From NCBI GenBank assembly GCA_002720855.1, contig PBIN01000015.1, positions 248,001 through 312,000 of the forward strand: a stretch of 64,000 nt of DNA, read 5' to 3'. Numbering within the stretch: the stretch's first letter is position 1; each line of letters starts with the position of its first letter. The notes beneath the pieces were generated by a model that ran no database searches, had not been told where the DNA came from, and saw only the letters and a program-made list of their open reading frames with translations. Source of the stretch: Rhodospirillaceae bacterium (GTDB lineage: Bacteria > Pseudomonadota > Alphaproteobacteria > MPNO01 > UBA2964). This document shows, in pieces, positions 46,594 to 51,454 of the stretch. A program made the position numbers and the translations under genes.

Positions 46594-46743
46594 TCGAGTT
46601 CAGAACAGCTTAAACCGCCCGCTGTAAATTACCAGCACCTAGTGCCAACGCAAAATCACGGGCTCAATTAAATGTGACTCGGCGTGATTTCCCCCGCGAC
46701 GGAAGCCGGTCGTACGCTTGTCGGCAAATGGGTTGCAAAGACA

Positions 46744-47436
46744 ATGGGCGAAACAAATAGAATCTTGCTTGTAGAAGATGATCCAGAGATGCAGAAATCT
46801 CTGCTCGATCAATTGGCCCTGCATGAAGAGTTCGAAATAACCGCTGCAAATGACGGAACAAGTGCGCTGGAAATTGTTGGCGCCGAGCACTTTGACATGA
46901 TTCTTCTTGATGTTGGTTTACCCGATATGGACGGACGCGATACCTGCCGCCTCATTCGCCGGAAAGGCATTCACACACCAGTAATCATGTTAACGGGGCT
47001 CGATAGCGACGCGGACATAATCCTGGGGCTCGATGCAGGAGCCAATGACTATGTCGTTAAACCATTCAAAATGGGCATACTTTTGGCGCGTGTCCGGGCT
47101 CACCTCAGGCAACATGAAGCCAGTGAGGACGCCTCTTTTAATTTGGGTCCGTATAGCTTTAGACCCAGCATTCGTACCCTGATACATCGCGAATCCAAGA
47201 AGGAGATTCTGCTCAGCGACAAGGAATGTGCGATCTTGAGGTACCTTTATCGTGCGGGCGATAAAGTCGTGGGCTGTGACACGCTGTATAGCGAAGTTTG
47301 GAATCACGCTGCACCGTTGGCGACGCACACATTACAAACACATATCTATCGGCTTCGGCAGAAAATTGAACCTAATCCAGCAGATCCATCGATACTGGTA
47401 TCTGAGGCCGGTGGGTACCGGGTCAAACGTCAATAG
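46744..47436 (+). CDS. OmpR/PhoB family response regulator, orphan
   Basis: A 230-residue two-domain regulator. The receiver has ILLVEDDPEM, the phospho-acceptor Asp in MILLDVGLPDMDG and the conserved Lys in DYVVKPF. The winged-helix output domain ends THTLQTHIYRLRQKIE. The ATG at 46744 places the receiver at the N-terminus; an upstream GTG at 46684 would add 20 unrelated residues. No histidine kinase gene is beside it. The next gene downstream is the cytochrome P460 gene, which it could control. Confidence 0.93.
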   Translation: MGETNRILLVEDDPEMQKSLLDQLALHEEFEITAANDGTSALEIVGAEHFDMILLDVGLPDMDGRDTCRLIRRKGIHTPVIMLTGLDSDADIILGLDAGANDYVVKPFKMGILLARVRAHLRQHEASEDASFNLGPYSFRPSIRTLIHRESKKEILLSDKECAILRYLYRAGDKVVGCDTLYSEVWNHAAPLATHTLQTHIYRLRQKIEPNPADPSILVSEAGGYRVKRQ

Positions 47437-47783
47437 ATTCAGTGTTCTGTTCATTGGCCTGTCACAAAAAATTGAGATTGAGTCACTAGCGAAGAACGCT
47501 TCTGCCCGGTTAGGCTTGGCATATAAAAATTAAGGAACCGTACAGTCGAAAACGGCGTACGGAAAATAAACTGAACAGAGAGTGTAAATGATGGAACCCA
47601 TAGATTCCCGCTAACAAGCAATGACGACAACTGACGCACGACCGGCGCAGGCCGAACGTCGTGCGAACGTGCGCATCCAACAATAATTGTTGCGGCAGCT
47701 TCTCTTGCTGTGGGCTGCAATGCCGAAAACCGTGCTGCTGAAGCGGACGCGGAACAAAAAACGATCAACGGAGGGTATTAAAA
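47437..47783 (+). other. Intergenic region with an inverted repeat and a degenerate lipoprotein-like frame
   Basis: Gap of 347 bp before the cytochrome P460 gene. It contains the perfect inverted repeat CAACAAT-A-ATTGTTG (47678-47692), whose half-sites are those of the operators at 44 and 54.5 kb in the opposite order. A CCGTAC / GTACGG pair lies near 47530-47560. From 47678 the frame leading to TAA at 47780 reads TIIVAAASLAVGCNAENRAA, like a lipoprotein signal, but it has no standard start codon after an upstream stop. A 21-codon ATG frame starts at 47621. No complete gene can be supported. Confidence 0.5.
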
Positions 47784-48890
47784 ATGAATTCAATGAAGTC
47801 CCGGTTATTGTCAACAACGGTTATACCACTCGCGATCGCCGCAGGATTTAGCCTCGTGACGGTAGCTGAAGCACCACAGGCTGTCGCTGGCCATCACGCA
47901 AAGGGTTGCTATCCATGTGCCGCCAAGCGTGGTTGTAACCCATGCGCGGCAAAACGCGGTTGCAATCCATGCGCAGCCAAACGTGGCTGCAACCCATGCG
48001 CAGCGCGCGGCTGCAATCCCTGTGCAGCTAAGCGCGGTTGTAATCCGTGTGCTGCCAAACGCGGATGCAATCCATGCGCCGCAAAACGCGGATGCAACCC
48101 ATGCGCAGCGCGCGGCTGTAATCCCTGTGCAGCAAGAGGCTGTAATCCCTGCGGCGCAAACCCTTGCAATCCATGCAACCCCTGTGCCGGTGGCGCAGCA
48201 TCCTTCAGCAGCAAGTGTATCGTTCCACGGCTTGCGAGTGCCAATCCGTGCGCGGCCAAGCGTGGCTGTAATCCGTGTGCCGCGAAGCGCGGTTGTAATC
48301 CATGTGCTGCGAAACGCGGATGTAACCCGTGTGGTGCAAACCCTTGTGGTGCCAACCCCTGCGGCCCTTGCGGAGCAGCGCCAGCGGTTGAACTGACAAA
48401 AGGAGAAACTGTTGCTGTCTACAAATGCCTGCAGGCTGAAATGAAAACGGCCTATGCGAAGTCGGGCAAACTGTGGGCCAAGTGGTATGCCCATTGGAAA
48501 AAATTCTCCAATCAACCCTACGTTTCATCAACACATGGCAGCCGATTTGTTCATAACTTTGCCAGCAAAAAAGCCGCCGCTGCATACGGAAAATTCGAGA
48601 AGGTCGGTAAAATGACTCGAGGTGGTATCCTGGCGAAAGATAGTTTCACAGTTACACCCCAAGGAAGGGTCAGTGTTGGACCACTCTTCTTAATGGAAAA
48701 GATGAAAGCGGGTTTCAACAAGGCAAGCGGAGACTGGCGTTACACGCTTATTATGCCGAATGGCCAAACTGTGGGCACAACCAATGGCAAAGGATCGAAG
48801 AACGTCAAGTTCTGTATCACCTGCCATGCCGCGGTTGCGCAGGAACAAGATGCAATGTTTTTCCTGCCTGAGGAGTTCCGGGTAAATTAA
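47784..48890 (+). CDS. Secreted cytochrome P460 with N-terminal Cys-rich repeats
   Basis: A 368-residue protein in three parts. Residues 1-35 form a signal peptide ending AVA. Residues about 41-198 hold 14 copies of GCNPCAAKR or close variants, with more than 30 cysteines. From about residue 205 comes a cytochrome P460 domain: WRYTLIMPNGQTVG, VGPLFLMEKMKAGF and the haem c motif CITCH (C344, C347, H348). P460 domains bind a modified c-type haem and can oxidise hydroxylamine or act on NO. The start follows GGAGGG. A strong terminator ends the gene. The repeat could bind metal or be heavily disulphide-bonded; this is unproven. Confidence 0.88.
   Translation: MNSMKSRLLSTTVIPLAIAAGFSLVTVAEAPQAVAGHHAKGCYPCAAKRGCNPCAAKRGCNPCAAKRGCNPCAARGCNPCAAKRGCNPCAAKRGCNPCAAKRGCNPCAARGCNPCAARGCNPCGANPCNPCNPCAGGAASFSSKCIVPRLASANPCAAKRGCNPCAAKRGCNPCAAKRGCNPCGANPCGANPCGPCGAAPAVELTKGETVAVYKCLQAEMKTAYAKSGKLWAKWYAHWKKFSNQPYVSSTHGSRFVHNFASKKAAAAYGKFEKVGKMTRGGILAKDSFTVTPQGRVSVGPLFLMEKMKAGFNKASGDWRYTLIMPNGQTVGTTNGKGSKNVKFCITCHAAVAQEQDAMFFLPEEFRVN
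47904..48375 (+). repeat. Tandem 24/27-bp repeat encoding GCNPCAA(K)R
   Basis: Two blocks in the cytochrome P460 gene: about 47904-48195 (10 units plus NPC triplets) and about 48241-48375 (4 units plus NPC/GPC triplets). They are separated by a non-repeat spacer (AGGAASFSSKCIVPRLAS). Unit lengths of 27 and 24 bp differ only by one Lys codon, so copy changes stay in frame. Confidence 0.93.
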
Positions 48891-50494: not shown

Positions 50495-51454
50495 TCAGCT
50501 TTGGCTGCAGGCGCCTCCACCCAACACACAGAACTTAGCGCAATGCGGATGGTTGAGCGGTATGTCTTTAGAAGAGTCTGCTAGCGTTGTGCCAAGCTCA
50601 AACTGATCGTCATAGGGTAATAACGTACAGGCGATAACCGCCGGTTTTTCTGCCCCTTTACGTTTGACAATCATGCGGGAGGTTGCGCACATCATGGCGC
50701 TTGGCTCAATGTTTAGAATTGACCAGCATTGCTCCGTAATCTCTGGCACATCCTGCGAAGCATCCATTTCCGGAAACAAAACCAACTTCGCCGGGTCATT
50801 CGTATCAACACTAATACCATGCTCCGCAAAGAGAGGCGCATAACCTTCACGCATCGCGGCTTCCTCCTCGCCCCACGGTGTCCGTCCCGCGACGTCCAGG
50901 CAAAAGTCGTTCTGGGACAACCAAATAAGACCTTTGAGCATACGATGCCAGCTGCCAATGCCGCGTTCAGCTTCATGAAGTTCTTGCCTGTAGTGGTCGA
51001 TCGAAACGCGGATGACCAGTTTATCATTGAACCAATATTTGAGTTTTTTGAGAGCATCCTCATGACGCTGCATGGGGCGCATAGCATTTGTTAGAACCAG
51101 GGCTCGGAATCCCCGCGACAAGGTCTCTTCCAGCATCTGCAACATGTCGGGATTCATAAACGGCTCACCGCCGGTAAACCCGATTTCCTCCGTTGCCAGA
51201 TTTTGTTCTCCAATCTCGTCCAGATAAGCGCGCACTTCGTCAATTGTTATGTAGGACAGCCGGTCATTTCGCGGGCTGGATTCGATGTAGCAGTTTTCAC
51301 ACGTCAGATTGCATAACGTGCCAGTATTGATCCAAAGCGTTTTCAGATCATCAAGTGCGACACTGGCGCGGGTATCTCCTGCAGCGGTTACGAGAGGGTC
51401 GCGAAACTTCGCTGGATCAAGAGGTTTGTGATCTGGTGGGCCTGCGCCGTCCAT
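50495..51454 (-). CDS. Radical SAM protein with C-terminal Cys-rich tail
   Basis: A 319-residue radical SAM enzyme. The cluster motif is CNLTCENC, with a following IGFTGGEPFMNPDM for SAM binding. The C-terminus has CTLLPYDDQFELG and CAKFCVLGGGAC, reminiscent of a short SPASM/twitch auxiliary-cluster region. The substrate is not known; no peptide-precursor gene is obvious beside it. It lies 12 bp upstream of nothing but follows the VOC and rhodanese genes on the same strand and could be in their operon. Confidence 0.88.
   Translation of the reverse strand: MDGAGPPDHKPLDPAKFRDPLVTAAGDTRASVALDDLKTLWINTGTLCNLTCENCYIESSPRNDRLSYITIDEVRAYLDEIGEQNLATEEIGFTGGEPFMNPDMLQMLEETLSRGFRALVLTNAMRPMQRHEDALKKLKYWFNDKLVIRVSIDHYRQELHEAERGIGSWHRMLKGLIWLSQNDFCLDVAGRTPWGEEEAAMREGYAPLFAEHGISVDTNDPAKLVLFPEMDASQDVPEITEQCWSILNIEPSAMMCATSRMIVKRKGAEKPAVIACTLLPYDDQFELGTTLADSSKDIPLNHPHCAKFCVLGGGACSQS

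Follow-up and report, generated by a model that had tools for sequence, protein, structure and literature searches.

Gene order and sequence comparison place the genes for exported cysteine arrays in genetic linkage with a gene for a DUF6969 protein, and often also with one for a secreted FGE-like protein; the recurrent adjacency to DUF6969 suggests a dedicated cysteine-handling or metal-handling system. The arrays behave as a mobile module: they stand alone or are attached to a P460 domain or a SoxA/TsdA-like cytochrome c domain. The exported proteins that contain them form a widespread, apparently undescribed family. In the literature searched, we found no mention of the repeat motif NPCAAK or of DUF6969. 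A preliminary description of one P460-array gene had missed the stand-alone arrays, the other heme domains, and the company of DUF6969 and the FGE-like gene. An odd repeat becomes a testable system: an exported polythiol module on several heme proteins and small proteins, found in many Alphaproteobacteria, including the culturable Thalassospira, and beyond the class.

The P460-array gene and its neighborhood

The window, a 64,000-nucleotide stretch of DNA from a Rhodospirillaceae bacterium, contains a gene whose product consists, in order, of a signal peptide, a first Cys array, a linker, a second Cys array, and a C-terminal cytochrome P460 domain (Table 1). The leader motif RLLSxTVIPxxxGxG is kept across families and is also found on a stand-alone array protein (L150). 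The two arrays are parted by a KCxVPRL-type linker containing SSKCIVPRLASA. In an AlphaFold2 model of the protein, built on only 7 sequences, both arrays are predicted to be disordered (residues 155-200, in array 2, have low pLDDT), linker residues 141-146 form a confident β-strand amid them (block pLDDT 85), and the heme domain is of moderate confidence (mostly pLDDT 72-88 by block).

Table 1. Features of the P460-array gene and its upstream neighbor (positions in the window).
Feature	Position	Strand	Basis
OmpR-type response regulator, directly upstream of the P460-array gene	46684..47436	+	domain match
Complete P460-array gene, 368 aa, ATG start	47784..48890	+	ORF call; relatives share architecture
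Signal peptide / leader (MNSMKSRLLSTTVIPLAIAAGFSLVTVAEAPQAVA)	47784..47888	+	by inspection
Cys array 1, residues 41-137: GC[NY]PCAA(K)R units and terminal NPCNPCNPC	47904..48194	+	tandem-repeat finder, motif count
Conserved linker, around SFSSKCIVPRLAS	48195..48239	+	conserved C[VIF]VPRL in relatives
Cys array 2, residues 153-198: three NPCAAKRGC units and NPCGA/CGPC units	48240..48377	+	motif count
Cytochrome P460 / c'-beta heme domain	48390..48887	+	Pfam PF16694; Foldseek
Lys285, region of the heme-crosslinking Lys of N. europaea P460	48636..48638	+	alignment
CITCH heme c attachment motif, residues 344-348	48813..48827	+	motif, alignment

The heme domain was matched at residues 235-359 by PF16694 (30.1 bits vs a cut-off of 27), and its top Foldseek matches were 7s5o (E 2.4e-4, probability 1.00), 6hih (9.3e-4), and 2je2 (9.9e-3). 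With the leader and the relatives, these matches bear out the initial view of a secreted P460 domain joined to a Cys-rich repeat. C344, C347, and H348 of the CxxCH motif are invariant among homologs, and Lys285 is invariant in 11 of them. Lys285 aligns with the VTVKE Lys region of 2je2 in a weak profile match (E 0.02); the heme-crosslinking residue of N. europaea P460 is Lys70 (PMC11928373). E305, in LMEKM, is nearly invariant and is a candidate distal acid at a position where the alignment to known P460 is gapped. The terms “cysteine-rich” and “fused” are absent from the 2025 review of the superfamily (PMC11928373).

The protein contains 37 Cys, 34 of them within the arrays, in agreement with the count of more than 30 given in the preliminary description, and Cys makes up 17% of residues 1-205 vs 1.4% across the ORFs of the window. 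The repeat had been described as 14 copies of GCNPCAAKR; a tandem array was indeed detected by TRF, but it is composed of twelve 8- or 9-residue units and further degenerate ones rather than 14 identical copies. GCNPCAAKR occurs exactly seven times and GCYPCAAKR once. Counted by core, there are nine nonapeptides ([NY]PCAAKR) and three octapeptides (NPCAARG), besides degenerate NPCGA/NPC units, and [NY]PC motifs total 19 over the two arrays. Unit length thus varies by one codon, as first noted, and the suspected variation in copy number is also seen: same-genus orthologs carry 8, 14, 15, 19, and 20 [NY]PC units, with all variation in frame. Pfam and NCBIfam gave no family match over the arrays. 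Among the eight perfect NPCAAKRGC copies, the 28 pairs show 153 base changes, every one synonymous; the lack of nonsynonymous changes is by construction, because only perfect copies were selected. Such heavy silent divergence around an intact peptide indicates that the array is old and that its peptide is maintained by selection.

Elsewhere in the genus, and also in a different family, the P460-array gene again has the response regulator as its neighbor (L046, L047, L050, L049); it is possibly the regulator of that gene. No kinase gene lies beside the P460-array gene in the window, and a histidine kinase gene is found at the small-array locus described below; regulator and kinase could thus be a two-component pair encoded apart. 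In the gap that follows the response regulator and precedes the P460-array gene, positions 47690-47783 hold a lipoprotein-signal-like reading (VAAASLAVGCNAENRAAEADAEQKTINGGY) with no clear start, possibly a gene remnant. A radical SAM protein encoded at 50495-51454 on the minus strand is akin to Rv1681-type and ArsS-type enzymes, with matches below the family cut-offs. Its gene is conserved in the genus, close downstream of the P460-array gene, and is also near that gene in one other genome (G019, L052); as a candidate maturase, it was not seen in the listed array loci of other families.

Spread of the arrays

The window protein was matched in 16 of the 61 related genomes. Across the sample of the class, array proteins were found in 30 families, 26 of them with DUF6969 as well, contrary to the possibility, raised at the outset, that the repeat is an isolated oddity of one genome. 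We rejected both this and an assembly artifact, given array relatives across many Alphaproteobacteria. More distant relatives use the unit types NPCAAK, NPCNPCAAK, and ACGACGAKK.

The window's genome also encodes a P460 paralog (L002) that lacks repeats, and a stand-alone array as a small protein of 74-75 aa (L003/L035). Small free array proteins of this kind (about 75-140 aa, exported) are common. The L003/L035 gene has a neighborhood that several genera keep (VTT-domain protein, FAD/Lpd-like oxidoreductase, array protein, histidine kinase): the first three genes stand in this order at loci L035, L038, L039, L042, L044, and L045, and the histidine kinase adjoins them in several. In other classes of the phylum, and at L239, arrays are joined to a SoxA/TsdA-like cytochrome c domain (SoxA-TsdA_cyt-c, 6e-10) and not to P460. 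At L228, L232, and L239, such genes, with NPCAAK arrays, lie 105-290 bp from DUF6969.

Linkage of arrays to DUF6969 and FGE-like genes

DUF6969 (PF22308) was first noticed adjoining array genes in three genomes (G027, G042, and G053), and among the 61 relatives only one array genome lacks it. In 387 alphaproteobacterial genomes with completeness of 90% or more, 52 had both arrays and DUF6969, 43 DUF6969 only, 7 arrays only, and 285 neither (Fisher p 2e-30, kinship ignored); counted per genus, the corresponding numbers were 35, 26, 4, and 199 (odds ratio ~67, kinship again ignored). Physical linkage is evidence independent of these tests. Of 42 genomes checked, 30 have no more than 5 kb between the array gene and DUF6969, and an operon of P460-array gene, small array protein gene, and DUF6969, in that order, is found at L104, L138, L147, and L159, and probably at L122.

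The association also appears when DUF6969, rather than the array, is the criterion for picking loci. Searching public genomes for DUF6969 only yielded 80 loci, and a first count put arrays within reach in 26 of them. We then defined array-type ORFs by a signal peptide (crude rule) and at least 7 Cys per 40 aa, and found 42 in 867 kb near DUF6969 vs 3 in 1101 kb away from it in the same loci, which is about 18-fold denser; the ORFs near DUF6969 include some from other classes of the phylum (L228, L232, L233, L235). The Cys peptides near DUF6969 differ greatly (CGAKCGA, EGCCAAEGCC, CAACAAGCAAC, NPCAAK, CGACGAKK, CAAC), so that what they have in common is Cys density, export, and DUF6969. At L192 and L240, lipoprotein-like exported peptides (AEGCCAAEGCC; CAACAAGCAAC) adjoin DUF6969. 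At L095 (G060 C10), one deletion has brought together the C-terminal remnants of two genes, DUF6969 and P460, which lie on opposite strands.

Not every DUF6969 gene accompanies an array. In 43 of the 95 DUF6969 genomes, the main query found no array, and a profile and local scan gave candidates in only some of these; the DUF6969 genes of Azospirillum and Sinorhizobium have other gene contexts; and the window's genome has its DUF6969 gene (contig C8), its P460-array gene, and its small array gene each on a different contig. The role of DUF6969 may therefore be wider, with arrays as one client. DUF6969 and FGE-like genes also occur within a recurrent TAXI-TRAP/UspA/DUF2336 neighborhood (among loci L101-L180), which could reflect their main role.

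DUF6969 proteins are about 250 aa long, have no evident signal peptide, and match PF22308 strongly (285.9 bits at L101 and 296 bits in the window's genome vs a cut-off of 27). A confident structure model (pLDDT 89.7, pTM 0.90) had no fold match at E <= 0.001 in the PDB or a viral structure library, and profile searches found no solved structure. His 66, 84, 86, 95, 97, 99, and 131 are invariant in 36 sequences, and the HxH pairs H84/H86 and H97/H99, on or beside predicted strands, are suggestive of a putative metal site.

The third frequent partner is the FGE-like protein (PF03781, 160 bits), which has a signal-like N-terminus and whose gene is no more than 6 kb away from DUF6969 in 49 of 120 loci. 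Its C263 and C266, within GGSWDDKGCGICR, are kept in 90% or more of homologs. FGE enzymes oxidize Cys. Citing Knop 2017, PMC12452194 refers to FGE as a copper enzyme.

Possible function and comparison with known systems

The explanation that we tentatively lean toward is that the array is a bufferin-like periplasmic soft-metal-binding Cys module, matured or chaperoned by DUF6969. Everything past gene linkage, including metal binding and Cys modification, we infer by analogy. The P460-array gene of the window encodes an exported, heme c-binding P460-fold protein with two flexible Cys arrays, and the arrays would be unstructured polythiol chains with Cys mostly at every third or sixth residue. 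In the periplasm, these may act as ligand or buffer for a soft metal, copper being the likeliest, or for another thiol-reactive species. Before Sec export, DUF6969 would handle the precursor in the cytosol by Cys modification, chaperoning, or loading; after export, the FGE-like protein may act on Cys or copper, and the heme domain may bring redox or NO/hydroxylamine chemistry beside the arrays. The whole would work like a bufferin, without the MNIO enzyme, rather than be one.

Bufferins are Sec-exported, Cys-rich RiPPs that buffer copper, some of them fused to cytochrome c and FGE domains, as in Buf1/Cytochrom_C and Buf1/Cytochrom_C/FGE-sulfatase (PMC12452194). These fusions pair the same partner types as the arrays do, which we count in favor of the bufferin-like reading; against it, no copper gene was identified adjoining arrays. 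Among the three functions first suggested for the repeat, a metal sink would stay the likeliest, by this analogy only, and we found no direct support for an electron relay or a covalent cell-surface link. A more specific proposal, which we regard as doubtful, is that DUF6969 is a metal-dependent enzyme of new fold that modifies the Cys of Sec-exported array proteins, and that these make up a new RiPP-like metal-binding class, fusable to heme c domains (P460 or SoxA/TsdA-like), in parallel to the MNIO-bufferin system. If DUF6969 does modify or load the arrays, there would be a second route, independent of MNIO, to secreted, Cys-rich, metallophore-like proteins, and a widespread DUF would gain a function.

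The arrays might instead be plain, unmodified, secreted metallothionein-like sinks, with DUF6969 linked in some other way, such as a shared regulon or metal delivery. Their composition is CxxC-rich (77% of 830 Cys intervals in array proteins are 3 or 6), and DUF6969 is the neighbor of arrays as divergent as NPCAAK, CGACGAKK, EGCCAAEGCC, and CAAC, which is what one would expect if thiols alone counted. However, a passive sink needs less than what is seen: one enzyme-like family co-occurs with arrays genome-wide and adjoins them tightly and repeatedly in an operon-like manner. We judge the plain-sink alternative unlikely.

More improbable is a role in sulfur, NO, or hydroxylamine redox chemistry instead of metal buffering, in which the attached heme c domain would serve arrays acting as thiol or sulfane-sulfur carriers or as reversible disulfide switches. 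The SoxA/TsdA family, to which the alternative fused domain belongs by its SoxA-TsdA_cyt-c match, handles thiosulfate on Cys, and the P460 domain retains CxxCH, Lys285, and the candidate distal acid; yet small array proteins without a heme domain are common, and the window shows no Sox gene next to the P460 gene. The covalent surface link first suggested, with intermolecular disulfides fixing the protein in the envelope or matrix, would suit the many Cys, predicted disorder, and secretion, but the same arrays occur as small free proteins, and no sortase, surface, or matrix gene was recognized in the neighborhoods inspected, which leaves this reading very improbable.

The window's genome does encode an MNIO (PF05114, 88.8 bits). 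Its gene, at G000 C15:237201-238022 (L037 9202-10026), lies some 10 kb ahead of the window; next come an overlapping gene that has no Pfam match and stands where a DUF2063 partner would be, and a LysE exporter. No precursor gene is evident directly upstream, which would suit modification of array Cys in trans by this orphan enzyme, but it has no match in seven array-bearing genomes (G010, G017, G019, G027, G033, G042, G053), a distribution that largely refutes the idea and makes it scarcely credible. Membership of the array protein in the bufferins was likewise rejected: no MNIO gene was seen in the array cassettes inspected, the P460-array and small array proteins have no DUF2282/Buf signature in Pfam or NCBIfam, and the MNIO of the window's genome does not track arrays.

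Compared with known systems, the window protein shares with the P460/c'-beta superfamily (NeP460 2je2/2je3, McCP-beta 6hih, NeCP-beta 7s5o) the fold, the CxxCH motif, and a Lys at the crosslinking-Lys position, whereas it adds two Cys arrays and a predicted extra strand before the second. The FGE-like partner fits the FGE/SUMF1-like family (PF03781), with two Cys in the region after GGSW; its pair is spaced as CGxC (CxxC), whereas the canonical FGE pair is spaced wider. Like metallothioneins, arrays have a very high Cys content and CxxC motifs; unlike them, they are exported, multi-domain, and tandem, with up to about 45 Cys, have no Pfam family match, and are linked to DUF6969 and FGE-like genes. 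Bufferins and captophorins (PMC12452194, PMC13097082) differ in that they are MNIO-modified, whereas arrays have DUF6969 instead, with no MNIO or DUF2063 partner recognized in the cassettes inspected. The likeness lies in exported, Cys-rich precursors with a signal peptide (of Sec type in arrays, by inspection and the crude rule) and variable Cys motifs, some of them long, in an adjoining putative processing gene, and in known fusions to cytochrome c and FGE domains.
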